32,867 nt of DNA from Roseospira visakhapatnamensis (lineage in GTDB: Bacteria; Pseudomonadota; Alphaproteobacteria; Rhodospirillales; Rhodospirillaceae): the NCBI RefSeq assembly GCF_014197915.1, contig NZ_JACIGK010000034.1, forward strand, positions 1 through 32,867, given 5' to 3'. The translations under genes and the position numbers were made by a program. Every line of letters begins with the position of its first letter. The stretch's first letter is position 1. A model generated the notes under the pieces. It was not told where the DNA came from. It searched no databases and was given only the letters and a program-made list of their open reading frames with translations. Below are positions 1 to 22,413 of the stretch, piece by piece.

Positions 1-197
1 GCCGCACGCCGGCGCTCGAAGTCGGCGACCACGCGCTGCGGGTCGCGCAGCACGTAGGGGCCGCGACCGTCCTTGCCGACCATGCGGCCGGCGGGGACGA
101 TCTCGATCCACTCGGGCGCGCCACCGCCCGCCGCCGCCTGGGGGGCGACGGCGAACGGGGCCAGCGGGGCCGGGGTCTGGGAGACTGTGGTGTCCAT
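1..197 (-). CDS. Mu gpI-like phage protease/scaffold protein (N-terminal part)
   Basis: The first 65 codons of a gene that continues off the left edge. In Mu, gene I encodes the head maturation protease, and an internal product serves as the scaffold. After an Ala/Pro-rich leader of about 28 residues comes EWIEIVPAGR, then a GRGPY motif and a segment ending VVADFERRRA. This matches the start of the Mu-like I protein family, where a WI.I.PAG strand precedes the protease domain. The position directly after the MuF gene is also as in Mu. The ATG at 197 is the first possible start after an in-frame TGA and has no clear Shine-Dalgarno sequence. A dyad element lies only 30 bases upstream. The catalytic part is outside the window. 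Confidence 0.8.
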   Translation of the reverse strand, partial: MDTTVSQTPAPLAPFAVAPQAAAGGGAPEWIEIVPAGRMVGKDGRGPYVLRDPQRVVADFERRRA

Positions 198-633
198 GAC
201 AGGCTGTGTGCCAGATCATGGACAGCGCGATCCCCCTGAAGACGTTCAGGTCGCGCTCGACCCGACGGCCTCGCGGGGCGCCCGGCCGGTCGACCCGGCC
301 GACCGCCTGCGGCGGCCGGATGGTGCCAGGGAAGGACCACGGACCATCCGGCAGGACCGCGCGGGGCGGTCCCGTTTTAAGAGGCCGATAAGAGCGTTTA
401 AGAGGGGGCTACATGCGCGCGACGCGCCAGGGGCGGCCCAAGGGGCCGTCGTGATGCCCTCGCGCATCCTGAGGCATCTGACGGAGTCGCATCGCTCCAG
501 GCGTGCGCCGGCGGGCCGGGTGTGCTAAAAAGAAGATGAGGGCGCGCGCGACACGGTGATCCTGCCTGCCGTAACCCGTCGCGATCGCGGCGGCGTGCCA
601 TGTGGGTGATCGGGCAGTCCCCACCGCGTGCCC
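198..633. other. 436-bp stretch without a convincing gene, between MuF and gene I
   Basis: Mu carries gene G (virion morphogenesis) at this place. No leftward reading frame here has protein-like composition, so G is absent, moved or decayed. The stretch holds three direct TAAGAG copies at 378-383, 389-394 and 399-404, spaced 11 and 10 bp (one helical turn each), and the 24-bp dyad element at 227-250. A TTCTTTTT run on the minus strand near 530-537 could end transcription coming from the MuF gene, but no clear stem precedes it. On the plus strand two tiny ATG frames (413-454 and 454-528) overlap as TGATG behind a purine-rich stretch. They are Arg-rich and I do not call them genes. Confidence 0.6.
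227..250 (-). promoter_or_regulatory. Dyad element CCTGAA-N4-TTCAGG, putative late-promoter operator (PI analogue)
   Basis: A perfect 6+6 dyad at 235-250 followed, in the direction of gene I, by GGGGATCGC. The same arrangement, including the asymmetric extension, recurs at 8155-8178. In Mu the activator C binds a 16-bp dyad at the late promoters, and one of these (PI) lies just upstream of gene I, as here. The operator role is therefore inferred from position and symmetry. No good -10 box is evident. Confidence 0.5.
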
Positions 634-1869
634 TCAGTCCTCAGGCCAAGCACCCCAGACCACCGCATGCTGCCGCATGCGGCCAAGAAACGTCGCGTCG
701 GCGCGGTACATGCTGACGACGTAGGGCACGCCGTGACGGTCCACCTTCAAGGCCACCACCACCTTGCCGCCGTCCTCCGTGGGCCGCAAAGCAAGAAAAC
801 TGTTCGGGCGGTTGCGCACGATCACCTGGGCGCCATGGATGCGCTCCGGCAGTACCCGATAATCGACCTGCCCCAGTTCCGGGTGGTTCCGGTGCTGCTT
901 CTGGAGCGTTTCCCCGGACAGGGTCACCACGGGCGACCGCGCCCCGATGGCCTGGGCGATGTCGTCGGCCAGACGGGCGATGGGATGAGCGCGGCCGTGC
1001 GTCGGGCGCTCCACGAGGCGCTGGAGCGACGGCCCGCGCGCCAGGTCATGGCACGCCGCCTGGCCGATGCGCGCCGGCAGGGCCGCGAGCCGGCCGTGCA
1101 GGGCATCGTCCAGCGCCCGCGCCCGCAGCGGCCCGCCGGAGCGCGACCAGGCGGGATCGACGGCCTCGGGGAGGGTCATGCGCTGGCCGGTCACCCTGTG
1201 CCGCACCGTCCGGGACGGCAGGGACACGCTGCTCCGCACGGTCAGGCCGCGCCGCGCGGCCTCGGCGGCCGTGATCTGGCGGACGCGGCATTTACAGCCC
1301 CACCCGTTCGGCGGCATGATCGTTTCCCACCCCGGATGATCCACCGCCATGGTCAGGCCCTTGAGCGTGACGTGCTCGGGCCGACGCTCACGGCTTGGTC
1401 CCAGCTCGTAGGTGAAGTACGGCAGCCCGGCCTTGGTGCGCTGGGCACGCTGGTACTGGCCGGCGGCGCGGGCCGAGCGCATGTTGCTGTCGTAGATCAC
1501 CCGCAGGCGCCAGGGCTGGCGCAGGTCTACGGTGCCCACCTGACCGGTGCGCGGGTCGATGACCTCCCGCCGCGCCCACCACCCCTTGGCCCTCAGCGTC
1601 GGTTCCAGGTCACGCGCCCAGCGGTCAAAGGGCGTGCCGGCCTCCAGGGCGGCCACGAGACTCTCGTGAAGGTCCCGCAGGATATCCAGCTCCATGATCT
1701 TGGCGGCCATGAAGCCGAAGGCGTGTTCTTCCGGCAGGACCTCATCGTAGTCCCAACGCGGCATCAGCCCCTTGGCGCGCAGGAACTCGGCCACGTTCGG
1801 ATCAACCAGGTGCCCGAAGCGATGGCCCGGCCGGTCGGGGAGCGGGTCCTGGCGGGCGCGCGGGGCCAT
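634..1869 (-). CDS. MuF-like head morphogenesis protein with C-terminal nuclease-like (PBECR-type) domain
   Basis: 411 aa. Minor head protein of the Mu F/SPP1 gp7 family, which sits inside or near the portal and can be ejected with the DNA. The MuF part covers about residues 1-270. It includes the family signature around 170-196, with an HPGWETIMPPNGWGCKCRV-type segment whose paired cysteines precede a conserved Arg. Residues about 305-400 form a second domain: a strand ending LSGETL, then NHPE (His329), a Leu-rich helix region, and strands with ALKV (Lys375) and VVSMYRAD (Ser386). This pattern resembles the phage Barnase-EndoU-ColicinE5/D-RelE-like nuclease domains known to be fused to MuF proteins. 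The nuclease activity is inferred. The start at 1869 overlaps the portal stop by one base (TGATG). No immunity gene is visible directly downstream. Confidence 0.85.
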   Translation of the reverse strand: MAPRARQDPLPDRPGHRFGHLVDPNVAEFLRAKGLMPRWDYDEVLPEEHAFGFMAAKIMELDILRDLHESLVAALEAGTPFDRWARDLEPTLRAKGWWARREVIDPRTGQVGTVDLRQPWRLRVIYDSNMRSARAAGQYQRAQRTKAGLPYFTYELGPSRERRPEHVTLKGLTMAVDHPGWETIMPPNGWGCKCRVRQITAAEAARRGLTVRSSVSLPSRTVRHRVTGQRMTLPEAVDPAWSRSGGPLRARALDDALHGRLAALPARIGQAACHDLARGPSLQRLVERPTHGRAHPIARLADDIAQAIGARSPVVTLSGETLQKQHRNHPELGQVDYRVLPERIHGAQVIVRNRPNSFLALRPTEDGGKVVVALKVDRHGVPYVVSMYRADATFLGRMRQHAVVWGAWPED

Positions 1870-3488
1870 CACCCGTCCCCGTCTGCATCTGGGGCGGGAT
1901 CGGGATCCGGGGCGTCGCCCAGCGCGCGGGCCAACAGGGTGGAGCGCGCCAGCCGGTCGGCCAGGGCCTGGCTATCGAGCCGGCCGTCCTCGACCAGGTG
2001 CGCCAGGCGTTCGACCAGGTCGTCGGGATCCTCGGCCTCGGCGGCCGTGTCCAGCACGGCGTTGACCGACGGCGCCATCACCTCCCAGTCGTCGTGATCC
2101 AGCGCCTCGGCGATCGCGGCATAGCCCGCCTCGACCGGATCACTATCGTCGTCCCCCTTGGCCGCCTGGCCGGCGCCGGTGGCCCGCTGCGGCGCCGGCG
2201 CCGGATCAGCGTCCGGCGGGGTGTCGGTGTCCGTGGGCATCGCCGCGCCCCCCAGCACCTCGTCATCGTCCTCGGGCGCGGCCCAGCCCAGACGCTCGCG
2301 CACGTCGTCGGCGCGGACCCGCAGACCCAGCGGCACCAGGCCGGTGAGCTGCTGGGTCACCGCCTGGGTGTCCTCGGGTTCGGTGATCGGCCAGGACAGC
2401 CAGGGGTAGACCTCCTGTGGTCCATAGTTCAGATCCACCTCGACCCGCACCAGATCCCGGTTGACCGGCCGCGCCACGTCGCCCGCGTCGGCCTGGGCCA
2501 CGTCGATCTGCACGCCGCGATGGACCTGCGCCTGCGACAGCGACGCGCCGTCGTCCGTGGTCATGGTCTGGCCCAAGACCGCCTTGCTGATCTGGCCGTC
2601 CAGGTATTCGGCCAGACGCTGGAACAACTCGGCGCCACCCCGGCCCTCCGAGATGCCCTGGAACTCGATCCGCATGGCCTCCGGCAGCACCGCCGCCGCG
2701 TCGGTGCCGATCCCGCTGACGGCCGCCACCAGCGTATCGATGTCCTGTTGCGTGGCGGACTGGCCGTACCGGCCCAGCCGCAGGGGCAGGCCGTAGACCT
2801 CGATGAACGCGACCCAGTCCTTCAGGGCAAACGCCTTGAACAGGTACGACCACGCCACCAGGCGGGCGAGCCCGCCGCGCACGGACAGGCCGCTCTTGAT
2901 GCGTGGCGCGTGGACGATGAACTTGCCGGGAGGAAGCTCGACACCCTTGGGTTCACCGTCGGCCGCCAGGCGCAGGGTGGTGCGCGTATCGTCGAGCACG
3001 AAATACCTGGGATCCCGCCACGGACAGGCCGATGGCGTCCACTGCTTGCCCGTCTCCCACAGAATTTCGCAAACGGCGTAGCCCTTGCCGAGGGCATCCA
3101 GCAGATCCATGACCATGCCGTTGAACCACGGCTGATCGACGATGGACCGCCTGACGAAGTCGGCGATCTCGCCGGCGCGGGGACTGTCGTCGCCTGGGGT
3201 CACGATGGGCTCGACCCCGGCCACCGCCCGCTTGCGGGTCCCCAGCACGGCCGCATAGTGCGGGTCGCGCTCCTCCATCTCCTCGGCCAGCGTCAGGTAG
3301 TCGGCGACACTGCCCTCGGTGGCCCGCTTGAGGATCCCCGCCAGCCACTCGGGCGTGAGCCCGGTGGCGATGGTGCCGCTGAACGGTCGTCGCACGCCGG
3401 TCACCGCTGGCGCCGCGACGGTCTGTGTCAGGGTGCCTCGCTCGATCGGCCGGCCGTCCGGTCCGAGGATCTGGGATGTGCGTGCCAT
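1869..3488 (-). CDS. Portal protein, DUF935 family (Mu gp29-like)
   Basis: 539 aa, close to Mu gp29 (512 aa). Members form the dodecameric portal at one capsid vertex, through which DNA is packaged and ejected. Recognisable family segments are the start MARTSQILGPDGRP, the LAEEMEERDPHYAAVLGTRK stretch near residue 70, an ALGKGYAVCEILWE segment in the first third, and a GQTMTTD segment near residue 305. The C-terminal quarter is Asp/Ala/Pro-rich and low in complexity. The gene sits between the large terminase and MuF, as in Mu. A purine-rich GAGGA lies about 12 bases upstream of the ATG. Confidence 0.9.
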   Translation of the reverse strand: MARTSQILGPDGRPIERGTLTQTVAAPAVTGVRRPFSGTIATGLTPEWLAGILKRATEGSVADYLTLAEEMEERDPHYAAVLGTRKRAVAGVEPIVTPGDDSPRAGEIADFVRRSIVDQPWFNGMVMDLLDALGKGYAVCEILWETGKQWTPSACPWRDPRYFVLDDTRTTLRLAADGEPKGVELPPGKFIVHAPRIKSGLSVRGGLARLVAWSYLFKAFALKDWVAFIEVYGLPLRLGRYGQSATQQDIDTLVAAVSGIGTDAAAVLPEAMRIEFQGISEGRGGAELFQRLAEYLDGQISKAVLGQTMTTDDGASLSQAQVHRGVQIDVAQADAGDVARPVNRDLVRVEVDLNYGPQEVYPWLSWPITEPEDTQAVTQQLTGLVPLGLRVRADDVRERLGWAAPEDDDEVLGGAAMPTDTDTPPDADPAPAPQRATGAGQAAKGDDDSDPVEAGYAAIAEALDHDDWEVMAPSVNAVLDTAAEAEDPDDLVERLAHLVEDGRLDSQALADRLARSTLLARALGDAPDPDPAPDADGDG

Positions 3489-3556
3489 GGTCAGGTGTCC
3501 TCAAATTGCGGTCGACCCGAGGCGGCCCAACGGGCCGCCGAAGGTTGTCGAGCGCA

Positions 3557-4939
3557 TCAATAACTGCCGCGCCGCGCCCGCAGGCCGGACGTCAGGCGCA
3601 CCTGCCGCGTGGTCTGTTCGGGGCGGACGGGGATGTAGGCATAGGGCTGATAGGTCCCGTCGGTGGCCGCGTGGACCGCGAGAAACCCGGCCCACGCCCG
3701 GTCGGCGTGGCCGGTGCTGTCGCTTTCGGCCACGAAGCGGGGCGTTCCGGTCGGGCTGGTCACCTTCTTCAGCTTGTGCAAGTCCGCGCGGAGGATCGGG
3801 TCGCCGGCCGGAACGCGGATGCGGCGATCCTCGAACGCTTCCTTGCCCGTCGTGGCCAGCATCAGCTTGTTGGCGGCCGTGAACAGCACGCCTTCCACGC
3901 GGCTGTCGCCGTAGCGGTGCTTGGCGTCCTCGACCGGCTTTTCGCCCATGCCGGTCTGGTCCATGCCTAGCCGGATCACGTGGTAGCGCTGGAACAGCTC
4001 GTCCATCACGGCGTCCTGTTCCGCGAAGGATGCCCGTTTCAGGGTGACGATCTCGCGCGTCCACAGCACGTCGCCCACGGCTTCGAGCACCCACGCCACC
4101 CACAGGTCATTGCGGGCGGCGATGTCATTGCCGATGAAGCACGGCCCACCCTGGTAGTGGGCTGGATCTCCGGCGGCCGGATGTTCGACGGCGCCGATCA
4201 GGTCGTAGGACAGCCAGGCGCTGGCCTCGTCCAGCCACTGCAGCTCGTACTCCTGCGCCCAGGCGTCATCGTCGGCCAGGGCCTCGCGCAGGGCATCGAT
4301 GTCCCGGGGCAGGCCCTCGGCGACGGCGCGGTGAATGTCCACGATGTGGCGGGACCAGCAGTCATCCTGCCCCGTGACCAGGTCGAAGAACTTGTTGCCC
4401 TTGCCGTTGGGCGTGCTGACCACGCGCAGGCGATAGCCGTTGGAGATGACGGGGAAGAGCGCCGCCCAGATGCGCCGGCTGTCGGCATGGAAGGCGAATT
4501 CGTCCAGGAAGACGTTGGCCGAGAAACCGCGCGCGGTGTCCGGGTTCGCCGGCAAGGCGGTGACCCGCGAACCACCGGGAAACGAGACCTCCAGCGCGTT
4601 ACACCGCACCTCCTGCCCCTGCCACTCGTACTCCCGGAACACGGGCTCGATCTTCAGGACGGCTTTGAACAGCTCTTGATAGGCCCGGCAGAACGGCTTG
4701 ATGGCCTCGTCCATGGCCTCCTTGGCTTGGCGCTCGCCCCGCGACAGGATCACCCACCGCGTGCGGCGCCCTTCCACCTCGGCCGCGAACACGTCGTCCA
4801 CCAGTTCCAGGCAGGTGGTGAAGGTCTTGCCCGTCTGGCGGGCGAACATGCCGATCTTGAAGCGGGACCGGTCCTCGAACCAGGCGCGCTGGTACGGGTA
4901 GAGCGTCAGGGCGGGCACGGGCGCGGGCGCGTCGGCCAT
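3557..4939 (-). CDS. Terminase large subunit (Mu gp28-like)
   Basis: 460 aa. This is the packaging motor: an ATPase that drives DNA into the prohead plus a nuclease that cuts it. An ATPase P-loop variant, ARQTGKT, lies at residues 33-39, and the Walker B motif VFLDEF, with Asp146 and Glu147, lies at 143-148. STPNGKGNKFFD, in the second third of the ATPase part, fits the coupling motif. The C-terminal RNase H-like nuclease shows the acidic strands GNDIA and GMDQTGMG. The ATG at 4939 overlaps the stop of the small subunit by one base; a GTG one codon earlier is possible. The 68-bp gap before the portal gene is the longest in this part of the chain. Confidence 0.93.
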   Translation of the reverse strand: MADAPAPVPALTLYPYQRAWFEDRSRFKIGMFARQTGKTFTTCLELVDDVFAAEVEGRRTRWVILSRGERQAKEAMDEAIKPFCRAYQELFKAVLKIEPVFREYEWQGQEVRCNALEVSFPGGSRVTALPANPDTARGFSANVFLDEFAFHADSRRIWAALFPVISNGYRLRVVSTPNGKGNKFFDLVTGQDDCWSRHIVDIHRAVAEGLPRDIDALREALADDDAWAQEYELQWLDEASAWLSYDLIGAVEHPAAGDPAHYQGGPCFIGNDIAARNDLWVAWVLEAVGDVLWTREIVTLKRASFAEQDAVMDELFQRYHVIRLGMDQTGMGEKPVEDAKHRYGDSRVEGVLFTAANKLMLATTGKEAFEDRRIRVPAGDPILRADLHKLKKVTSPTGTPRFVAESDSTGHADRAWAGFLAVHAATDGTYQPYAYIPVRPEQTTRQVRLTSGLRARRGSY

Positions 4940-5484
4940 CACGCCACCCCGAGATGCTGTCGCACCATGTCCAGGGCCTCGCGCATGGTGACGGTCTTGG
5001 TGGGCTCCGCCTCCCCGTCCAAGTCGTCCAGCTTCGCCTTGTTCTCCGCCGCGATCTCCTTGGCGAGTTGGGCCTTGATCGCCTCCCGATCCTTGGTGCT
5101 GGCCATCAGGTCGCGGATTGTCCGCGCGATATACATCAGCTCCTTGGCGTCTTCCTTTGCGTCGTCGTCCTTGATGCGATCCATGCCCGACCGCATCATC
5201 CGAGCCTGCAGCATCTGCACCAGCACCATGTGGGCTTCGCCTTCCGGCACAACGCCCAACTCGCGGGCGAAGCCGGCCGCCGCCACCTTGGTCTCGCGCA
5301 AGCGCGCGGCGACCTCGCGGAAGTCCGTGGCGTATCGTCCCAGGGCCGAGCGTGACACGCTGTCCGCGCCCAGGGTCCGCAGGTGGGCGAGGATTTCGTC
5401 GAGTGTGTGTTCCTGGCCCAGGAGGCGGTCGATCTCCTGGCGCACCTCGGCCGGCAAGCGGCGGATCGAACTCCTCCGGCCCAT
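4939..5484 (-). CDS. Terminase small subunit, DUF3486 family (Mu gp27-like)
   Basis: 181 aa. The DUF3486 family recognises phage DNA for packaging and hands it to the large subunit. The N-terminus MGRRSSIRRLP followed by EVRQEIDRLL and a helix-turn-helix-like region (LDEILAHLRTLG, then VSRSALGRY) is typical. A long, highly charged helical middle and C-terminal part probably mediates oligomerisation. The start at 5484 was chosen because the longer frame upstream is Arg/Pro-rich and overlaps the preceding gene. Confidence 0.9.
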   Translation of the reverse strand: MGRRSSIRRLPAEVRQEIDRLLGQEHTLDEILAHLRTLGADSVSRSALGRYATDFREVAARLRETKVAAAGFARELGVVPEGEAHMVLVQMLQARMMRSGMDRIKDDDAKEDAKELMYIARTIRDLMASTKDREAIKAQLAKEIAAENKAKLDDLDGEAEPTKTVTMREALDMVRQHLGVA

Positions 5485-5486
5485 GG

Positions 5487-5789
5487 TCAGCTCCCCGGCC
5501 GGGGGCGGCGAACGCCGGGGTGGCGGGCTCGGCCCTGGGCCACGTCCAGGCCCCGGCCGGTCAGGGTGGCGACGATCACCCGGCCGCCGGCCAGGGGCTC
5601 GACCGTCACCAGACCGGCCTCGGCCAGCCATTGAACATCGCCATCCACCACGTCACGACTCACGCCGTGCCCATAGCTGGCCAGCACGGTCTGGAGGATC
5701 GAGGTGTTCAGCGCATAGTCGATGTCCTCGGACAGAGTGCGCAGAATGACGAGGCGCCGGTCCTCGCGCAGCACGTCGACCAGGGTCAT
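5487..5789 (-). CDS. VpaChn25_0724-type phage protein (winged-helix-like)
   Basis: 100 aa. It resembles the small phage family typically found just before the small terminase in Mu-like phages, with LREDRRLVILRTL at the start, LNTSILQ, a GHGVSRDVV recognition-helix-like segment, then LAEAGLVTVE and a GRGLDVA.GRARHPGV tail. The layout suggests a winged helix like that of ArsR/MarR regulators. The actual role (regulation or packaging) is unknown. The ATG overlaps the upstream stop as ATGA. Confidence 0.8.
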   Translation of the reverse strand: MTLVDVLREDRRLVILRTLSEDIDYALNTSILQTVLASYGHGVSRDVVDGDVQWLAEAGLVTVEPLAGGRVIVATLTGRGLDVAQGRARHPGVRRPRPGS

Positions 5790-6220
5790 GAGGGTTCACC
5801 TCCATCCCGCCGGCCCTGGGCCAGCTCGTTTTCCATCAGCATGTCCACGGACCTCTCAAGACGCGTCGAGACGCGGGTCAGGCCGTCCAGCCGGCCGTTG
5901 AGTTCCCGCACCTGACCTCCCACCTCCGCCACCAGCGTGGTCAAGGCGGTCATGTCGGCGTGGGTCGGCAAGCCTTCGATCCTGGCTTCGAGGCGGGCGA
6001 ACCGCGCCTCGCCCCGATCCAGGCGTTGCGTGATCTCGACGTGCGCCCCGCCGTGGGCGTCCCGCCAGCGCCGCACATCCGTCGCCAGCGCCGACACATC
6101 CGAGCGCGGCGCGAACACAGGCCACAGGCGCCAAAGCACCACACCCAAGCCCGCCATGGTGATCAGACCCGCCCAGGCTCCCAACCCGGCCAGCCAGTCC
6201 AGCAGGCGCGCCCCATCCAT
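5786..6220 (-). CDS. DUF2730-type phage membrane protein (Mu gp24/25-like)
   Basis: 144 aa. One transmembrane helix at about residues 9-35 (WLAGLGAWAGLITMAGLGVV) is followed by a long helical, probably coiled-coil region with repeated LDRGEARFARLEARIE and LNGRLDGLTRVSTRLERS patterns. This is the layout of DUF2730 proteins found between lysis and terminase genes in Mu-like phages. The function is unknown. A holin-like role is conceivable, because no other holin candidate is visible, but a single helix with a large soluble part is not typical. The start overlaps the upstream stop by one base. Confidence 0.75.
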   Translation of the reverse strand: MDGARLLDWLAGLGAWAGLITMAGLGVVLWRLWPVFAPRSDVSALATDVRRWRDAHGGAHVEITQRLDRGEARFARLEARIEGLPTHADMTALTTLVAEVGGQVRELNGRLDGLTRVSTRLERSVDMLMENELAQGRRDGGEPS

Positions 6221-6459
6221 CACCACACCCCCGTCTTGCGATACCGCGCCGCGCGCACCTCGGCGGCGGCCTGGCAGCCGGCGCAGCGGGTGGCGCCGGG
6301 CCGCGCCTGGCGCCGCGCCGGCGGGATCGGCTGGCCGCAGCTCGTGCACCGGGTCGCCGGTGTCGGCGCGGTGGGGGCCGGGTATGCGCGGCGCCGGGCG
6401 ACGATGGCCTCCCGCTCGGCCTCGACCCGGTCGGCCGCGATGTCGACCAGGTCAGCCAT
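6220..6459 (-). CDS. DksA/TraR-type C4 zinc-finger protein
   Basis: 79 aa. A helical N-terminus (MADLVDIAADRVEAEREAIV) is followed by a four-cysteine zinc finger, C-x2-C (Cys38, Cys41) and C-x2-C (Cys59, Cys62), separated by 17 residues, with RCTSCGQPIP and RCAGCQAA motifs as in the TraR/DksA family. Short TraR-like proteins bind the secondary channel of RNA polymerase and mimic DksA plus ppGpp. This one lacks an obvious DxxDxA tip, so it may not act that way. The gene overlaps the lipase gene by eight bases. Confidence 0.8.
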   Translation of the reverse strand: MADLVDIAADRVEAEREAIVARRRAYPAPTAPTPATRCTSCGQPIPPARRQARPGATRCAGCQAAAEVRAARYRKTGVW

Positions 6460-7168
6460 CGGCGGCCTCCGAGAGGATCTCCGCATAGGTGTCCACGTCG
6501 TGGTGCCGGAGGGGCCAGATGCCACCCGGCAGGTGGTCCCACCGCCAGGCCGGGGCCGGCAGGCGGATCGCCGGGCCGGGGTGCGTCAGGCCCGGGATCG
6601 GCGGCCACAGCGGCGCCGGATCGCCGCGCACGACGTAGCGGCGCACCGGGCAGCCGATGGCGGCGGCCGCATCACGGTCGATGGATTTCGGGGCGCCGAA
6701 AGTCACAACCTCTGTGACATCATAACGACCCAAACTCTCTGTCTGCCGCCACGACCAGCGCGCGGCCAGCAGCGTGGCCAGCGCCCCGCCCATGGAATGA
6801 CCGGTCAGCACAGTGGAGGCGCCGCCGGTGGCGATGCAGGCGGACACCCGGTCGAGGATACGGTCGAGCTGCCGGCTATAGCCGGTGTGGGCGCGACCGG
6901 GACCGGCCCAGGGCGAGGGCGCACCCAGATTGGCGAGGACGTCCCGCCACTGACCCTCGGACACCTCGGTCCCGCGCAGCACGAGGGCCAGTCCCCCGCG
7001 CTCATGGTTCCGGACCAGCGCGGCCTCGCAGCCGCCCCACGCGATCCACTGCCACACCTCGCACCCCAGCGCCCGGATCGCGGCCTCGCGGGCGGTGCGG
7101 TCGCGCTCGTACACGGCCGAGCACAGCCCGGCCAGCACGGCGTCTCCCGTCACATGCGGCGCGATCAT
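6452..7168 (-). CDS. Class 3 lipase-like alpha/beta hydrolase in the lysis cassette
   Basis: 238 aa. It has the pattern of class 3 lipases: a LALVLRGTE strand, a long helical segment with HTGYSRQLDRIL, the nucleophile elbow GHSMGGALA with the catalytic Ser, VVTFGAPKS after the next strand, RGDPAPLWPP with the probable catalytic Asp, and a C-terminal RHHDVDTY segment with the probable His. No signal peptide is visible. It overlaps the preceding lipoprotein gene as ATGA and follows the endolysin gene, so it is probably made at lysis. A role in opening the outer membrane by cutting phospholipid or lipoprotein esters is inferred from context only. Confidence 0.85.
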   Translation of the reverse strand: MIAPHVTGDAVLAGLCSAVYERDRTAREAAIRALGCEVWQWIAWGGCEAALVRNHERGGLALVLRGTEVSEGQWRDVLANLGAPSPWAGPGRAHTGYSRQLDRILDRVSACIATGGASTVLTGHSMGGALATLLAARWSWRQTESLGRYDVTEVVTFGAPKSIDRDAAAAIGCPVRRYVVRGDPAPLWPPIPGLTHPGPAIRLPAPAWRWDHLPGGIWPLRHHDVDTYAEILSEAADG

Positions 7169-7377
7169 GGCGTGGCCTCCGGCGCACCGTCTGGGCAGTG
7201 GATCAGCGTGCGTCCGCCCGTCAACCGGTCGCGCACGGCCGCCTTGCCCGCGTCCGAGGCGCCCCCGCAATAGCGGTCGGCCGCGCCGGTCATGACGTCG
7301 GCGATGTCGTCGATGGACGCGCACCCGATCAGGGCCAGGGCGGCGGCGACCGGGATGGCGATACGGGATACGCGCAT
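7165..7377 (-). CDS. Small phage lipoprotein (possible spanin-like)
   Basis: 70 aa. The N-terminus MRVSRIAIPVAAALALIGC is a lipoprotein signal peptide with lipobox LIGC and the lipidated Cys at residue 19. The mature part is about 50 residues and holds two further cysteines. It lies two bases after the endolysin gene and overlaps the lipase start. Its size and place fit an outer-membrane o-spanin (Rz1-like), but it is not Pro-rich and no partner i-spanin is seen, so this is only a suggestion. Confidence 0.75.
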   Translation of the reverse strand: MRVSRIAIPVAAALALIGCASIDDIADVMTGAADRYCGGASDAGKAAVRDRLTGGRTLIHCPDGAPEATP

Positions 7378-7379
7378 GG

Positions 7380-8099
7380 TCAGGTCTCCCAGAGGGCTTG
7401 GATCACCGCCGCGCGCGGCGTGGCCGCCGGCAGGCCCAGGGCGGACCCCGCCGCCGCCAGACCGGCCGAGGTGCGCGGCCCCCACCGGCCGTCGATGGGT
7501 CCCGGGTCGTGGCCCAGGTCGGCCAGCCGCTGCTGGGTCAGGGCGGTGCGCGCCCGCTCCAGGCAGCGCACCCGGTCGGGCAGGCCGTTGGTGCCGCCAT
7601 TGATGCGCCGGGTGATGGCGCGGATGTCGTCGGCGTCGGCCAGCGGGTTCAGGCCCCGGTCGGTCCAGTAGGCGGCGGCGATGCGCAGCGACAGGCCGGG
7701 CTCGGCGGCGCGGTGCGGGTCGGCCTCCAGGTCGATCCCCAGCCGGCGGCCGAAGAGGGCGTAGTTGTACCGGCCGGTGAGCTGGATCAGGCCCCGACCC
7801 TTGTAGCGGCGGCCGTCGCCGGGCCGGGTGTTGCCCAGGTCGCGGCGGCCCTCGTAGGCGGCGCCAGACGCGTATTCCTCCGTCGTGCGGAAGTGGTCGG
7901 ATTCATGGGCCAGTTGCGCCAGCAGATGGGCGACGCGCGGGAGCGTCGCGATTTCGTGGGGCGGCAGCACCGACGGCGCCTCGGCGGCGATGATCGACAC
8001 GATCTCGACCTGACGGGTGCCCAGGCGTCCGCCGGCGGTGGCGAACAGAACGGCTTCTGTGGGTCGGATTGGGGTGGGTAGGACAGGCGGGGCCGGCAT
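7380..8099 (-). CDS. GH19-family endolysin with peptidoglycan-binding-like C-terminus
   Basis: 239 aa. It cuts the peptidoglycan glycan strand at lysis. The GH19 (chitinase class I-like) catalytic domain covers about residues 25-180. LAHESDHF holds the probable first catalytic Glu and TTEEYASG.AYEGR the second acid. These are followed by the family hallmark RRYKGRGLIQLTGRYNY and later RRINGGTNG. The last 50 residues (LADLGHDPGPIDGRWGPRTSAGL and onward) look like a PG-binding-1 repeat. There is no signal peptide, so a holin or similar is needed for export. The ATG at 8099 follows GGGAGGT. Confidence 0.9.
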   Translation of the reverse strand: MPAPPVLPTPIRPTEAVLFATAGGRLGTRQVEIVSIIAAEAPSVLPPHEIATLPRVAHLLAQLAHESDHFRTTEEYASGAAYEGRRDLGNTRPGDGRRYKGRGLIQLTGRYNYALFGRRLGIDLEADPHRAAEPGLSLRIAAAYWTDRGLNPLADADDIRAITRRINGGTNGLPDRVRCLERARTALTQQRLADLGHDPGPIDGRWGPRTSAGLAAAGSALGLPAATPRAAVIQALWET

Positions 8100-8107
8100 G
8101 CGGACCT

Positions 8108-8131
8108 CCCTCACACGGTGGAGCGTGAGGG
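8108..8131 (-). promoter_or_regulatory. Hairpin in the endolysin leader
   Basis: CCCTCAC (8108-8114) and GTGAGGG (8125-8131) form a 7-bp stem with a 10-base loop just before the endolysin start. The stem partly covers the GGGAGG ribosome binding site, so it could limit translation of the lysis gene. Its function is inferred. Confidence 0.4.
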
Positions 8132-8154
8132 CAGGATGCGCCTGGCGGCGGCCG

Positions 8155-8178
8155 GCGATCCCCCTGAAGGGGTTCAGG
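8155..8178 (-). promoter_or_regulatory. Dyad element CCTGAA-N4-TTCAGG, putative late-promoter operator (Plys analogue)
   Basis: A perfect 6+6 dyad at 8163-8178 with the same downstream extension GGGGATCGC as the element at 227-250. It overlaps the stop codon of the Mor-type gene and lies about 60 bases before the endolysin start, exactly where Mu has its C-dependent late promoter Plys. It could also act as a short hairpin. Binding by the Mor-type protein is inferred. Confidence 0.55.
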
Positions 8179-8635
8179 CCGGCGGCGGCACGATCAGGTC
8201 GAGAAGGTCAAGTTGGCGGTCATCGCCCGCCTGGTCCCGATCCCGGGCCAGGGCCAGGTAGACGGCCCGCTCGGTGATGCCCAGGGTGTGGGCGATGTCC
8301 TGGATGCGCCGGCCGTCGGCGCGCAGGGCGACGATGCGCCGTTGGCGGCGGCGCTGAAGCCAGCCGAACATGTTGGGGACATGGACCTCCAGGCCGTGGC
8401 GGTCCCGAAGACGGCGGGCGACGATGCGCGCGATCTCCGGGTCCACGTCCAGGGCCTGGTGCAGGTCCGATCCCTCCACCCGTGCGTCCGCCGGCACGGT
8501 GATCTCCAGGCCCCCCAGGCGCTGCACAAGGCGCAGGGCCTTTTCCTCGCCGACCACCTCCAGGATGGTCAGCAGAACCGCCGGCAGCGGCCCGTAGCGC
8601 TCGCGCAGGTCGGTGATGGAGGGCGGGCGGCCCAT
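8174..8635 (-). CDS. mor: Mor/C-family transcription activator
   Basis: 153 aa, near the size of Mu Mor (129 aa) and C (140 aa). These dimeric activators switch on middle or late phage promoters that lack a good -35 box. The N-terminus (ITDLRERYGPLPAVLLTILEVVGEEKALRLVQRLGGLEITVP) is the dimerisation region and matches Mor's G-G-x-x-x-x-V-P signature. The C-terminus has a helix-turn-helix, IVALRADGRRIQDIAHTLGI then TERAVYLAL. It lies between gemA and the lysis cassette as in Mu. Only one Mor/C-type gene is visible, so it may do both jobs. The start at 8635 is one base from the gemA stop. Confidence 0.9.
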   Translation of the reverse strand: MGRPPSITDLRERYGPLPAVLLTILEVVGEEKALRLVQRLGGLEITVPADARVEGSDLHQALDVDPEIARIVARRLRDRHGLEVHVPNMFGWLQRRRQRRIVALRADGRRIQDIAHTLGITERAVYLALARDRDQAGDDRQLDLLDLIVPPPA

Positions 8636-8636
8636 G

Positions 8637-9347
8637 TCACGGGCAGCCCTGCAGGTGTCGGGACAGCGGCGCCGCGATCCCGGCCGCGTCCATGGCATCG
8701 CGCAAGCGCTGGCCACGAGCGGCCAGCAGGCGATCGAGCGCCGCGTTGTCCAGGTCGGACGGCACGGGAGCCTGTCCGGCCGGCTCTACGCCCAACGCCA
8801 CCAGCCGCCGCGCCTGTTCGCGGGCCACACGAACCTTGGGCTGCTCGCGCTGGCCCCCAGGGTGATCCACCGGCCGGTCCGGTCGCCCCAGGGCTGGCGC
8901 CACCCGGCCCAGCCAGCCGCGCAGGCCCCGGATGACCCGGTCCAGATGGTCGCCGGCCAGCCATTCCAGGCGCGCCACCCCCTGGCCACCCTGACCCGGC
9001 GCGCCCTTGGTCATGCGGATCACATAGGCTTCCAGGGCACTCTCGGAGGCGTCCGAGACCTCTCCCAAAACCCACAGGTCCAGCCACAGCGCGCGGGCCT
9101 TGGCCAGGGCGTCCGGACCCTTGGCGATGGGACGGGCCGGACGCCGGCCGGTGTCCCGGGGCGCGTGGCCGTTCAGGTGGTCGAGGACCGCCATGAGTTG
9201 GCGCACGCCCATGTCGCGGCAGCTCTCGACGCCACCATGGGCGCGCAGCATGGCGCGGTAGGCGTCGTCGAACAGCCCGCGCGCCTTCGCCGCCGCGTGC
9301 ACGGCCGCGATCATCTTCCGGCGATCGGGGGCGCGGCGGGCGGTCAT
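8637..9347 (-). CDS. gemA: GemA-like regulatory protein (DUF1018; Mu gp16-like)
   Basis: 236 aa. The N-terminal half has the DUF1018 pattern: MIAAVHAAAKARGLFDDAYRAML, then a SCRDM.VRQLMAVLDHL helix pair with a conserved CRDM (CKDM in relatives), later LARALWLDLWVLGEVSDASE- and LEAYVIRMTKG-like segments, and a WLAGDHLDRVIRGLRGWL helix. In Mu, GemA affects host gene expression and DNA supercoiling. The C-terminal 90 residues are less conserved. The ATG overlaps the upstream stop as ATGA. It directly precedes mor, as in Mu. Confidence 0.85.
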   Translation of the reverse strand: MTARRAPDRRKMIAAVHAAAKARGLFDDAYRAMLRAHGGVESCRDMGVRQLMAVLDHLNGHAPRDTGRRPARPIAKGPDALAKARALWLDLWVLGEVSDASESALEAYVIRMTKGAPGQGGQGVARLEWLAGDHLDRVIRGLRGWLGRVAPALGRPDRPVDHPGGQREQPKVRVAREQARRLVALGVEPAGQAPVPSDLDNAALDRLLAARGQRLRDAMDAAGIAAPLSRHLQGCP

Positions 9348-13238: not shown

Positions 13239-14195
13239 CTAGCTCGACGTGGACAGCCGCGCCCAGGCGGCCTTGTAGTGCGTGATGTCGGGGATCTCGG
13301 CGCCGGCGCCGGTGGCAAGCATCGCCGCCACGCGCATGGTCTTGACCATGCCGCGCAGGGCGCCGGGCTTCTGGGCGATGCGGCGCAGGAAATCGCGGCA
13401 GTCCTCGGCCGTGACCGCCCAGGCATCCAGTAGCGCGGGCGCGTCGCCCGGCTTGGGCTTCGCGGACACCATCCGCATCCCGACGCGACTGAAGAGCTGG
13501 GCGAATTCGGCCTGCCGCCCCTGGCCCTCGAGCCGCGTGTAGACGGTCTCGTTGCCCAGCAGGACCAGGCCGCACCCCGTGCGGTCGTGGATGGACCGCA
13601 GGGCGTCGAGCGCGTTGGGCTGCAGGTGCTGGGCTTCGTCGATAATCAGCAGGCCGGACTTACCTTTGACGTACCCGGCGATGGCGCGCGAGAACCCCTG
13701 CGGCGAGCGCTCGGTCAGCCCCAGCGCCAGGGCGATCTCGCCCAGGGCCGTGCTGACCACCCGCGTGGTCGGGTCCATGGTCGCGAGCCAGGCGTTCGGC
13801 GTGTCCTCGACATACTGGCGCGCCGTCGTGGTCTTGCCGCACCCGGCGCCCGTGGCGACGACGGCAATGTCCGGGGCGATGTGCGCGTATTGCAGGGTCT
13901 GCCAGATGGCCGTCGCGCTGTCCGTCCGGACGAAGCCAACGTCCTGGGGTAGGACGGCGGCGGCCGCCTGGCGCTCCTGCCGCGAGGCCAGCCAGCGCTC
14001 CACCTTGGTGGCCATCTTGTCGTTGTCGCCTTGGTACGTGCCCGTCAGCCAGGCGCTGAAGCTGCTGTAGCCGATCCCCGCCTCCGTGGCGGCGGTCTTC
14101 TGGCTGATCGCCTCGTCCGCCAGCAGGGCGCGAACCCGTTCGCGCAGGGCCTCCTGAAGTCCTTCAGGGTGTTGCATGATCATTCCGTCCGGCAT
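13239..14195 (-). CDS. DNA transposition ATPase, MuB-like
   Basis: 318 aa, against 312 for MuB. MuB is an AAA+ ATPase that polymerises on target DNA, stimulates transposase A, delivers the target and enforces target immunity. An N-terminal helix-turn-helix (ISQKTAATEAGIGYSSFSAWLTGTYQGDN, about residues 30-58) is followed by Walker A GAGCGKTT, Walker B LLIIDEAQ, a LLGNETVY sensor-type strand and an arginine-finger-like SRVG segment. The ATG at 14195 was chosen for its GAGGTGAAACT leader. It lies directly downstream of transposase A, as in Mu. Confidence 0.93.
   Translation of the reverse strand: MPDGMIMQHPEGLQEALRERVRALLADEAISQKTAATEAGIGYSSFSAWLTGTYQGDNDKMATKVERWLASRQERQAAAAVLPQDVGFVRTDSATAIWQTLQYAHIAPDIAVVATGAGCGKTTTARQYVEDTPNAWLATMDPTTRVVSTALGEIALALGLTERSPQGFSRAIAGYVKGKSGLLIIDEAQHLQPNALDALRSIHDRTGCGLVLLGNETVYTRLEGQGRQAEFAQLFSRVGMRMVSAKPKPGDAPALLDAWAVTAEDCRDFLRRIAQKPGALRGMVKTMRVAAMLATGAGAEIPDITHYKAAWARLSTSS
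14153..14168. promoter_or_regulatory. Third copy of the CCTGAA-N4-TTCAGG dyad, inside the B gene
   Basis: A perfect match to the 16-bp core of the two intergenic elements, near the 5' end of the B coding sequence. It lacks the GGGGATCGC extension. It encodes part of the stretch PEGLQE, so it may be accidental; a regulatory or protein-loading role is unproven. Confidence 0.25.
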
Positions 14196-14257
14196 AGTTT
14201 CACCTCGTTGCATAACGTCCGTCCGAGGGGCGTGTCCGGTGGCCGCCGGCGCGCCCC

Positions 14258-16231
14258 TCATTCATGGCTGGCGCGGTAGTCGGCCAGCCGGGCTACCCCA
14301 GCCGCGAAGGCGCGGTCGAAATCCGCGCCGGTCGCCGCCTGGGCGTCCTCATCCGCCTCCGGCGCCACGCGCCGGGCGGTGTTTCCGACAATGCGAATGA
14401 CCTTGGCGTCCGGGTCCGGCGCGTCGGCCGGCGTCGGCAACGCCGCCGCCACCTGGGCCGCCGTCAGGCGCTTCTCAGCCTCGGACATCTCGCGTACGGC
14501 GCGGCTGAACCGGCGCCGTTCGGCGGCGTGATCCTTGGCGGCTGCCTGATCGGCGAATCCGGTGTCGTCGATGCACGCGGCCTCGCACACGGCGGAGCCA
14601 TCCAGCAGCGAGACATGGATGGGCTGGCGCAGCTTGTCGGGGTCGAAGCGCACCACGACTTTCCGCCCGATCAGCCGGGCCAGAGCCGGGTCCCAGTACC
14701 TGTTGCCCATCAGGTGGATTTCCCCGGTCGGGGTCCGGCACGTCACCCCTTCGGCGGCCAACAACCACAGGCGCCGCATCTCCGGGGTGGCCCGGCGGAT
14801 GACGTTGTCGGGCGACTCGTAGCTCTCCTGGAACGTCTGGTTGAACGACCGCCCCCGGCAGGCGGTCGCCTTCCGCCCCGGCCGGGCGTTGTGGCGCCGC
14901 AGTTCGCGGTCCACGATGGTGATGAAATCGTCGATCGGGACGGCGCGTGAACCGTAGTTGTGCGGCTTGTGCTGGGGCGAGCGCCCGGTGTAGGCGCCCG
15001 CGCAGTCCGGCCCCTTCGACACCAGCTCGGCGATGTCCTTGAAGGCGCGTTCGATCGGCTTGCTTTGCCCATGGTACGGGGTCGTGAAATGCACCTCGCA
15101 CCCGAGCTGCTTGAACAGCCCGACCGGATCGTCATCCTTGATCTTGAACCGGAACCGGGTGGAGACCCCGCCGGTAAGCCATTTGCTGCTGGCGGCTCTC
15201 GTGTTGTCGAGCCAGATGTGTCCCGGTATGCCGTCCTCATCGCAGACGTCGCCGAACGCCAACCGGAACGCCGCCGCGTTTTCGGAGCGGTCGACCCGCC
15301 AACTCAGGACCTTACCCGAGTACAGGTCCTGGAACATTGCCATCATCGGGCGGCCGATCGTGCCGTCAGCCCATTCAACGAACACGTCGAACTTGTGCCC
15401 GTCGAAGTTCACGGCTTCCAGGGCCTTGAAGGCGGTTCGGTCGCGCCGCTGGGCAGGGAACTTGCGGGCCACGGCCTCGGGGCCTTCCCGGCACCAGGTC
15501 ACCACCAGGGGATCGACCTCGGCCAGGCGCCTTTGCAGGGTTCGGTCTGAGGGCAGGTCCCAATCCCGCTCCGCCGCCACGTCGCGCAACCGCGTGATGC
15601 AGGCATCCAATGCCGGCTGTTCCGGTCGGAGGTAGTCGTCCTTCAGGAATTGCAGCGCGTCCGGCGGGATATCCGTCGTGGTTACCCGCCCCGAGCGCTG
15701 GTCCACCAGCATGGGCAGCCAGTGTTCGCGCGGCGTGTTCCAGGTACGCCGCTCCAGGCCGTAATAGGTGCGCGGGCTCATGCCCGCCGGCCGGCAGGCC
15801 AGTTCCACGGCGGCCGTCTTGCTCATGCCGCCGGCGACCAGGTCGGCCACCTGCCTGAACAGGTTCAGGCGCTCCCGGGCCTTGTCCTTACGGGTCTCTG
15901 GCAGGGCCTCGAACCGCGCCCAGGCTTCCTTCCAGTCGGCCTGGTCGTTGGCCGCCCGGGGTGTCTCGGGGGGTGCCTCGGCGGCCGGCGCCGCCAGCCC
16001 CCGCCGCCGCAGGAACGCCGCTCGGGCACGCGGCGGCAGCACCGAATAGTGATACTCCACCCCACCACCCCGGCCGGCCCGCCGCCGCCACACGCCCTCG
16101 GCCCGGTTGTTCGACCACCGCCGGTCCGGGACTTGCCAGTCCCGCGCCCGGCGCGTGGTCGCCTCGCGCGTGCGCGGCATGCCCGGCAGCCGCAGGTCGG
16201 CGATCTCGGCGGCGGTGAGCCAGTCCGTCAT
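14258..16231 (-). CDS. Transposase A, MuA-like DDE recombinase
   Basis: 657 aa, against 663 for MuA. It cuts and joins the phage ends for integration and replicative transposition. The N-terminal Mu-type DNA-binding domain (residues 1-75) begins LTAAEIADLRLPGMP and includes the wing around RRWSNNRAEGVWRRR. The catalytic core has the three acids in family context: Asp277 (NFDGHKFDVFVEW), Asp342 (WLDNTRAASSKW) and Glu394 (SKPIERAF), against D269, D336 and E392 in MuA. A beta-barrel follows at about 480-570. The last 100 residues are helical and should contact B. The start at 16231 overlaps the upstream stop as ATGA; the longer upstream frame lies antisense to that gene. Confidence 0.96.
   Translation of the reverse strand: MTDWLTAAEIADLRLPGMPRTREATTRRARDWQVPDRRWSNNRAEGVWRRRAGRGGGVEYHYSVLPPRARAAFLRRRGLAAPAAEAPPETPRAANDQADWKEAWARFEALPETRKDKARERLNLFRQVADLVAGGMSKTAAVELACRPAGMSPRTYYGLERRTWNTPREHWLPMLVDQRSGRVTTTDIPPDALQFLKDDYLRPEQPALDACITRLRDVAAERDWDLPSDRTLQRRLAEVDPLVVTWCREGPEAVARKFPAQRRDRTAFKALEAVNFDGHKFDVFVEWADGTIGRPMMAMFQDLYSGKVLSWRVDRSENAAAFRLAFGDVCDEDGIPGHIWLDNTRAASSKWLTGGVSTRFRFKIKDDDPVGLFKQLGCEVHFTTPYHGQSKPIERAFKDIAELVSKGPDCAGAYTGRSPQHKPHNYGSRAVPIDDFITIVDRELRRHNARPGRKATACRGRSFNQTFQESYESPDNVIRRATPEMRRLWLLAAEGVTCRTPTGEIHLMGNRYWDPALARLIGRKVVVRFDPDKLRQPIHVSLLDGSAVCEAACIDDTGFADQAAAKDHAAERRRFSRAVREMSEAEKRLTAAQVAAALPTPADAPDPDAKVIRIVGNTARRVAPEADEDAQAATGADFDRAFAAGVARLADYRASHE
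15854..15869. promoter_or_regulatory. Fourth copy of the CCTGAA-N4-TTCAGG dyad, inside transposase A
   Basis: A perfect match to the 16-bp core within the transposase coding region, without the GGGGATCGC extension of the intergenic copies. No copy was found in the host part of the window. Its function is unknown and it may be coincidental coding sequence. Confidence 0.25.
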
Positions 16232-16686
16232 CGCACCGACCTCCGGGCCAGCCGCCGCGCCGCGTCGAAGGCGCGGTCGATCTCGTTCTTGGTGTCCGCA
16301 AGTTGCCCCACCTCGACCCAGGGCAGATAGCGGTCGCTGATGACCGCGTGCCCGAACAACTCGGCACCCAACTGGTACAGCCGGACGTCCCCGGTGGCAT
16401 GCCACAACGCCAGGACGCGCACGAAACTGATGGTGTGTTCCGTCTTCGCCTGACTGGCGTAGGCGTCCAGCATCGGCTTGGTCACCTCTTCGCCGAGCCA
16501 CGCGCTCATGGCCTCGGCGATCTCCTCGCGCGGTCTCTGGCACTCCTTCAGGGTGATCGCCACCGCCCGGCTGATCCGGTCCCGCAGGGTCGCGGCCCGC
16601 GTCTGCGCCGCCGCATACCGCACCACCGGATCAGTCGGTGCCCAGGCGAACAGGGGCAGAGCATCCAGGTCGCGGTGGGTGGACAT
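16228..16686 (-). CDS. Early phage protein upstream of transposase, unknown function
   Basis: 152 aa. Mostly helical: TRAATLRDRISRAVAITLKECQRPREEIAEAMSAWLGEEVTKPMLDAY has the look of a helix-turn-helix-like bundle, followed by FVRVLALWHATGDVRLYQLG and a charged C-terminus. Its position immediately before transposase A, with an ATGA overlap, suggests a transposition or early regulatory role, but the family was not recognised with certainty. Confidence 0.7.
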   Translation of the reverse strand: MSTHRDLDALPLFAWAPTDPVVRYAAAQTRAATLRDRISRAVAITLKECQRPREEIAEAMSAWLGEEVTKPMLDAYASQAKTEHTISFVRVLALWHATGDVRLYQLGAELFGHAVISDRYLPWVEVGQLADTKNEIDRAFDAARRLARRSVR

Positions 16687-22206: not shown

Positions 22207-22413
22207 CTGGTTCAGGTTCTCGTTCGCGACAACAATGTCGATCAGGCGCTGAAAGCTCTGAAGAAGAAGATGCAGCGCGAAGGTGTTTTCCGGGAAATGA
22301 AGCTGCGCCGCAACTTCGAGAAGCCCTCGGAGAAGCGCGCTCGTGAAAAGGCCGAGGCCGTTCGCCGCGCCCGCAAGCTGGAGCGCAAGCGGTTGGAACG
22401 GGAAGGCTTCTAG
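22207..22413 (+). CDS. rpsU: 30S ribosomal protein S21 (apparent CTG start)
   Basis: 68 aa, the usual size. S21 sits in the small ribosomal subunit near the anti-Shine-Dalgarno sequence and helps initiation. The sequence ([20 protein letters not shown], then [20 protein letters not shown] and a long Arg/Lys helix ending LEREGF) is unmistakable. No ATG, GTG or TTG is available: an in-frame TAA lies at 22192-22194, inside the region of AAGGAGG (22193-22199), and the first in-frame ATG is about codon 21. CTG at 22207 is seven bases from the ribosome binding site, the ideal distance; ATT at 22201 is too close. A non-standard start is therefore likely and may serve autoregulation. Confidence 0.92.

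Follow-up and report, generated by a model that had tools for sequence, protein, structure and literature searches.

A dyad element shared by two predicted late promoters of Mu-like prophages is probably the binding site of a single Mor-type activator

RESULTS

Genes of the locus and the two copies of the element

The stretch of DNA analyzed here (the window) is one whole contig of 32,867 bases (NZ_JACIGK010000034.1) from the genome of Roseospira visakhapatnamensis, which comprises 4.49 Mb in 99 contigs. The left half of the window consists of the left part of a minus-strand, Mu-like prophage, whose right part lies outside the window. A DDE transposase A, a B ATPase, a Mu-type portal and a MuF protein mark it as Mu-like (transposable). 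Our subject is a 24-bp element that occurs twice in this prophage, once after the gene of a Mor-type activator and once ahead of gene I, and its probable relation to that activator.

All genes described here are on the minus strand. Transposase A (positions 14258 to 16543) was recognized by Pfam PF02914 and phrog_310, and transposition protein B (13239 to 14261) by Pfam PF09077. The Mor-type protein (8174 to 8635; 153 amino acids, recognition helix TERAVY) matched phrog_836, a family of late transcriptional activators, with an E value of 8.6e-22, and it belongs to the Mor/C family, since its score for Mor PF08765 (26.7 bits) exceeded the curated cutoff of 24.9. phrog_532, the best family of Mu C, also matched it (E 4.1e-6). 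The family profile found 1rr7 (Mor, 6.8e-5) and 9l0x (C, 1.4e-4), but other helix-turn-helix proteins ranked higher. A single-sequence AlphaFold model of the protein was too poor to be used (predicted local distance difference test score, 52.8).

The endolysin of GH19 type (7380 to 8099; phrog_181, E 3e-52; PF00182, 27.8 bits against a cutoff of 25.5) is the first gene 3' of the element that follows the Mor-type gene. Its start ATG (8099) was picked by eye and is preceded by GGAGG at 8105 to 8109. The late operon continues with the small (Mu gp27 type; 4939 to 5631) and large (3557 to 4942) terminase subunits, both identified by profile matches, the Mu-type portal protein (1869 to 3488; Pfam PF06074, E 3e-100) and a MuF-like minor head protein (634 to 1872; Pfam PF04233, phrog_220). 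A gene for a class 3 lipase or esterase (PF01764; 6452 to 7324) lies between the endolysin and terminase genes. Gene I, for the head maturation protease, is truncated by the contig end (1 to 197); its first 65 amino acids matched phrog_328 (E 1.6e-6) and had no Pfam match.

The first copy of the element, here called the Plys element (8155 to 8178, minus strand), consists of a 16-bp dyad, CCTGAA-CCCC-TTCAGG (8163 to 8178), and a downstream extension, GGGATCGC (8155 to 8162). The second, or PI element (227 to 250, minus strand), consists of CCTGAA-CGTC-TTCAGG (235 to 250) and again GGGATCGC (227 to 234). Both are exact matches. On the coding (minus) strand of the operon the dyad comes first and GGGATCGC follows, in both copies; read on the plus strand, GCGATCCC is followed by CCTGAA-GGGG-TTCAGG at 8155 to 8178 and by CCTGAA-GACG-TTCAGG at 227 to 250. 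The TGA stop codon of the Mor-type gene (8174 to 8176) lies within the Plys element, and 55 bases separate the end of this element from the endolysin ATG; the PI element ends 29 bases ahead of the gene I ATG (197). An earlier, sequence-only reading of this DNA had placed the element at these two positions, shared flank included, after the Mor-type gene and ahead of the lysis genes in one case and ahead of gene I in the other, as the counterparts of the Mu promoters Plys and PI. All of this was borne out, as the endolysin is the next gene, the truncated gene matches a head maturation protease family and the places agree with those in the Mu record (AF083977).

At up to two mismatches, the dyad had four matches in the window, all of them exact, compared with a mean of 0.58 in 100 shuffles. 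The host genome holds five exact copies of CCTGAA-N4-TTCAGG, four of them in the window; the fifth, on contig C3, lies in a stretch that looks coding by eye. The remaining two in the window, overlooked in the sequence-only reading, are inside the B gene (14153 to 14168) and the transposase A gene (15854 to 15869), without the flank. On the plus strand, a CATAGT box (14193 to 14198) stands at promoter spacing from the B-gene copy, pointing against A, and one might speculate that this copy could be an antisense promoter against A. Three extra copies of a phage's own dyad were counted in 651 kb from 29 phages, two being those in A and B of the window; most phages were covered up to about 1 kb upstream of mor, hence A and B were included in few.

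Paired dyads in related prophages

When the Mor-type protein was searched against 60 genomes, the host's own included, 9 matched. In three of the matched loci (G035a, G017 and G024), the window's dyad was present right after mor and again 7 to 13 kb downstream. Three others had different arms at the equivalent two places, namely, CCGGAA in G004, CCTCAA in G018 and CCGGAC in G002. No pair was found for G035b, G011 was scanned for CCTGAA only, and G012 had CCTGAA-N3-TTCAGG after mor on a contig that stops 6.2 kb on.

We then defined an exact pair as a perfect dyad of two six-base arms with a spacer of 3 or 4 bases, lying -30 to +120 of the mor stop, whose arms and spacer length recur 6 to 14 kb on. 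A profile search of the host's order gave matches in 110 of 317 genomes at an E value of 0.001, a good number of which were weak. Of the 64 new places with stronger matches, 60 were taken, and the resulting order sample had 69 loci, of which 49 had at least 7 kb downstream. Exact pairs were found in 19 of these 49 loci, compared with 8 of 882 downstream and 1 of 244 upstream control windows. Wider searches matched 29 of 385 genomes of the class (at an E value of 1e-9) and 67 of 398 of the phylum. From the class, 29 regions were taken and 27 analyzed (L137 and L140 were too short), and from the phylum, 40 were chosen for room on the contig; of the 67 loci analyzed, 66 were long enough. Ten of these 66 had exact pairs, compared with 5 of 1,188 control windows (14 of 2,314 for all controls together). 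By kinship, the pairs were in 10 of 31 loci of the host's class, two being near-identical G692 prophages, and in none of the 35 loci outside it. The paired design thus appears to be common in the host's class, and none was seen beyond the class by this strict test. Twelve near pairs were picked by eye (6 of 25 and 6 of 40), the last six after the trend described below had been seen and with the -10 match in view; they were excluded from the order, wider-sample, -10 and helix-blind counts. Separate classes of paired dyads were seen in G211, G282 and G102 (L097, L100 and L109), with the half-site GGCGCAA and a TRRTIQY-like helix, and in L209, with AGACCG and the helix ARSTVI.

The expectation that relatives would carry the element at late-gene starts held for the lysis and protease starts, in phages with Mor-type proteins 21 to 47% identical, but not beyond them: no further exact own-type dyad was found in the 25 to 44 kb downstream of mor scanned in G035a, G017, G004 and G002, which means that in these four phages the tail genes would be read from PI.

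The genes at the second site were scanned in 10 phages (the window, RcapMu, G035a, G017, G018, G024, G004, G002, G255 and G211), and all 10 matched a head maturation protease PHROG (328, 976 or 15531). For G024 and G211, this PHROG ranked second to a family without a known function, and the selected frame starts more than 330 bases after the site. None of the three second-site proteases given to a Pfam scan had a match.

Isolated phages and viral contigs

The paired design was also found in isolates that infect Rhodobacter (RcapMu and RcWaterboi) and Rhizobium (RR1-B); plaque formation of isolates on Rhodobacter capsulatus is described in PMC8601537. RcapMu (L193; record JN190960) carries CCGGAC-CTGT-GTCCGG at 13949 to 13964, ahead of the lysozyme gene, and at 22370 to 22385, ahead of the protease gene; the arms of RcWaterboi are the same, and RR1-B has a CCGGAA-N5 pair (L196, 1034 to 1050 and 8498 to 8514). 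Among 12 viral-contig relatives, an exact pair of the kind expected was seen in four (L200 and L203, plus L204 and L205, which are nearly identical to each other), L209 had an exact pair of a new type, and the scan gave none in the other seven. In L208, one of these seven, the CCGGAC site that follows mor is imperfect; there is an exact one 8.2 kb further and a third, exact, upstream, at a setting of two mismatches for which 1.7 matches are expected by chance. ESV4, a partial record of 10 kb that stops short of the second place, shows an imperfect site of GCGGAC type after Mor. A "wide" match in B3 was not counted, as it had a score of 0 and no -10 box and was far from mor, and a match in D3112 was not counted for its two mismatches. 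Enterobacter phage Arya and Chromohalobacter phage YPCBV-1 were also matched in the search of phage records; tblastn of the window's Mor-type protein against phage records gave no match.

Promoter geometry and leaderless starts

The geometry of the sites was examined in 29 phages (19 from the order sample, 9 distinct ones from the wider samples, and RcapMu), or 58 sites. An A and a T four apart, as in a TAnnnT-like box, were found at offsets 24 to 27 after the dyad in 54 of the 58 sites, compared with 33 of 406 other four-offset windows, and in 35 sites the A was exactly 33.5 bp from the dyad center. With this A taken as -11, the dyad center falls at about -44. The four exceptions were the PI sites of the window and of G002 and both G1042 sites. 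Plys of the window has the -10-like box CATCCT (8133 to 8138, minus strand), its A and T at the common offset, and a predicted +1 near 8126. No sigma-70 hexamer pair was found at the site, which has the features of a Pm-type promoter, a dyad near -43.5 and a -10 box with no -35. The geometry thus refines the earlier assignment, in that it would be that of the Mor-dependent middle promoter Pm of Mu, with arms that vary from phage to phage. For PI, the candidate box is CACACA (205 to 210, minus strand), spaced as in the relatives, and the predicted +1, placed by the common offset, is near 198, beside the gene I ATG.

In 19 of the 58 sites, the predicted start had an ATG at -1 to +1, and 17 of these 19 open at least 50 codons; the other start codons are mostly 12 to 56 bases past the predicted start. 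The frequent coincidence of +1 with a start codon speaks for the geometry, and it leads one to expect late mRNAs without leaders: about one-third of the promoters would fire at a start codon, and gene I is predicted to have a leaderless start.

The extension was analyzed in 26 phages with two sites each (the 29 minus three near relatives). Seven bases 3' of the dyad were shared within a phage, from 92% at +1 to 46 to 58% at +5 to +7, whereas the identity of the post-dyad bases between phages was 24 to 33%; the eighth base was not shared within a phage. On the 5' side, sharing within a phage was limited to the last 3 bases (62 to 77%). Outside the extension and the -10 box, the identity between sites was for the most part close to background and scattered up to about 0.5. 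By this comparison, the GGGGATCGC singled out in the sequence-only reading is the window's version of a general downstream extension. Its role is a matter of guesswork; it may contact the promoter-proximal Mor subunit or the polymerase.

Both places are operon ends, and the dyads could alternatively be intrinsic terminators that close the early/mor operon and the first late operon, with an RNA hairpin, not a protein site, being conserved. The RNA of 227 to 250 does fold into the dyad hairpin, lengthened by GCGA/UCGC, and TTTT is present within 16 bases in 17 of the 58 sites, and at both RR1-B copies. However, a T run is absent after both window copies, no terminator-like site was found in positions 1 to 9000 of the window, the best fold of 8155 to 8178 is a different one, and neither copy is exceptional (z scores of -1.9 and -1.1). 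A terminator-only reading was rejected on the missing T run, the lack of a terminator-like site and the unexceptional folds. Nor would a terminator require equal arms at two places, a fixed -10 spacing or covariation with the activator helix, and we regard this explanation as very improbable. Where a T run follows the dyad, as in RcapMu and RR1-B, terminator and activator roles may overlap; in the Mu record, a predicted terminator (9179 to 9200) lies within the Pm feature.

Covariation of dyad arms and recognition helix

In the aligned Mor-type proteins, the helix follows the pattern x1-x2-R-x4-V-x6, an assignment that rests on the alignment. We tabulated helices and arms for 33 lineages, with relatives at 50% identity or more collapsed, near pairs included and the GGCGCA class omitted, as its register is unclear. 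The pairs of x6 and base 3 of the arm were Arg-G in 12 lineages, Tyr-T in 11, Glu-C in 3, Trp-T in 2, Arg-T in 2, and Val-G, Ser-T and Lys-T in 1 each. His at x1 went with C at base 6 in seven of eight lineages, and this C went with another x1 in six, four of which have His at x4. In the 24 lineages whose exact pairs had been identified without reference to the helix (RcapMu and RR1-B among them; three near relatives and the GGCGCA class dropped), the permutation P value was 3e-5 for x6 with base 3 and 5e-4 for His with base 6. In a forward test on nine distinct new exact pairs, base 3 was right in four of six, the other three having Glu or Lys, outside the rule; base 6 was right in six of nine and wrong in G489, G450 and G692. 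Both bases were predicted correctly for RcapMu and RR1-B. The trend that emerges from the alignments, Arg, Tyr/Trp or Glu at x6 with G, T or C at base 3 and His at x1 or x4 with C at base 6, is a strong tendency, not a strict code.

For the window, G003, G004 and G002, the lysis leaders and -10 boxes could be aligned by eye, but the dyads differ and follow the helices, the combinations of dyad and helix being CCTGAA/TERAVY, CCGGAA/SERWVR, CCGGAA/TERWVR and CCGGAC/TQRHVR, respectively. G004 (L029/L030, reverse strand) has tandem PI promoters whose dyads are separated by about 100 bp. The first carries CCGGAA, the type of G004 itself, and the second carries CCGGACATCCGTCCGG as in G002; ATGACCGACGCC follows each, and the first opens a leaderless frame of 34 codons. 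This tandem is perhaps a trace, or fossil, of a change of activator. Taken together, the arms and helices suggest that activator and sites diversified together in related phages.

The dyad might instead be the operator of another regulator, such as a phage repressor, Ner or a host factor, and the two further copies in the transposition genes would suit such a role. Against this, the arms change in step with the helix of Mor (the comparison covered Mor and neither the repressor nor Ner), the site abuts mor and the geometry is that of Mor at Pm. A host regulon was rejected as unlikely because only one of the five exact genomic copies lies outside the window contig. We consider that another regulator stands little chance of being the owner of the site.

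A model of late control by one activator

We conclude that the element is very probably the binding site of the single Mor-type activator, which would drive Plys and PI directly through Pm-like promoters. The early operon would make the Mor-type protein, and a dimer of it would sit on the 16-bp dyad at about -44, replacing the -35 hexamer, and recruit the host RNA polymerase to the -10-like box some 24 bp downstream, in the manner of Mor at Mu Pm. From Plys, the lysis, terminase, portal and MuF genes would be transcribed, and from PI, the head protease gene and those after it. The late genes would thus be switched on directly by the activator, with no Mor-to-Pm-to-C relay, no C and no middle operon. 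That a single activator drives the late promoters, as had been proposed from the window, is now backed by the paired dyads of the relatives and their arm/helix covariation, which argue for it at the level of sequence.

A two-tier cascade could still be retained if a second late activator had escaped detection. The right part of the prophage is outside the window, distant Mor/C proteins are hard to find, and two weak profile matches were found in the genome (1.9e-4 and 5.7e-4, on contigs C24 and C56). However, both late promoters have the same dyad, and the complete RcapMu record has one place similar to its own Mor-type protein at an E value of 0.01, annotated as like Mu gp21 (the C gene). We regard a second activator as unlikely, if less so than the two alternatives discussed above.

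Several observations weigh against direct control by one activator, or against the helix trend that supports it. No exact pair was found in 30 of the 49 order loci and 56 of the 66 wider loci, nor in any of the 35 outside the class, and the scan gave no pair in Mu, B3, D3112 and RC1. The two exact copies inside A and B have so far matched no promoter role, and the PI box of the window, CACACA, one of the four exceptions, ends in A without the usual T. In the covariation analysis, the same permutation floor (2e-4, 50 tests) is attained by x2 for base 3 and by x4 and x7 for base 6; with several helix positions equally associated, the contact is not attributable to one residue. The lineages were treated as independent though they are not (RcapMu and G1042 share a helix), and the x6 rule failed for two of the six testable new pairs (G520 and G450).

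DISCUSSION

To our knowledge, late control in Mu-like phages is understood in detail mainly from Mu and its two-step Mor/C relay. We somewhat favor the broader view that a phage group in the host's class runs a one-activator late program with a phage-specific activator-operator language, which follows a readable trend and in which two sites about 7 to 8 kb apart change in concert. The protein family and the promoter type are known; what would be new is their use for late genes in a single step, the diversification of the sites along with the activator and the leaderless starts. Our literature search found no account of such paired sites, and a prior remark in Fogg 2011 (RcapMu) or Braid 2004 (B3) is possible. 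For more than two dozen prophages, predicted promoters are mapped here from sequence alone, together with a predicted relation of activator to site and a prediction of late transcripts that lack a leader. Natural matched activator/promoter pairs of differing specificity would be useful as orthogonal switches and would make a clean case of a regulator and scattered sites changing together.

The closest promoter is Pm of Mu. There, the 16-bp dyad bound by Mor spans -51 to -36, with its center at -43.5, and the promoter has a -10 box and no -35 hexamer (PMC4390567 and PMC4287176). The sites described here share with it a dyad upstream of a -10 box without a -35 hexamer, the position of the dyad (about -44 against -43.5), a site right after mor and a Mor-family protein. 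However, in Mu, Mor drives Pm and not the late promoters (PMC4287176), whereas here the dyad is at both late promoters. The half-sites differ as well, being 6-mers with N3 to N5 spacers here and 5-bp repeats around a hexamer at Pm (PMC4390567).

With Plys and PI of Mu, which depend on C, the common feature is the two places, one after the activator gene and ahead of the lysis genes and the other ahead of gene I (AF083977). The Mu C dyad is said in PMC4287176 to be related to the Pm dyad. A scan that allowed up to five mismatches in all and used no C-site model found no shared dyad of the present form at Mu Plys and PI. Mu differs in having PP and Pmom as additional late promoters and in its middle operon, which is a separate one. 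The regulon was called rewired in the sequence-only reading, a term to be taken as relative to Mu.

The stretches viewed of the RcapMu, RcWaterboi and RR1-B records carry no annotated promoter features. These three phages differ from the window in their arms (CCGGAC or CCGGAA) and, for RcapMu and RR1-B, in the T run after the dyad. They resemble it in that a dyad comes after the Mor-type gene and returns ahead of the protease gene, with helix and arms that follow the same trend.

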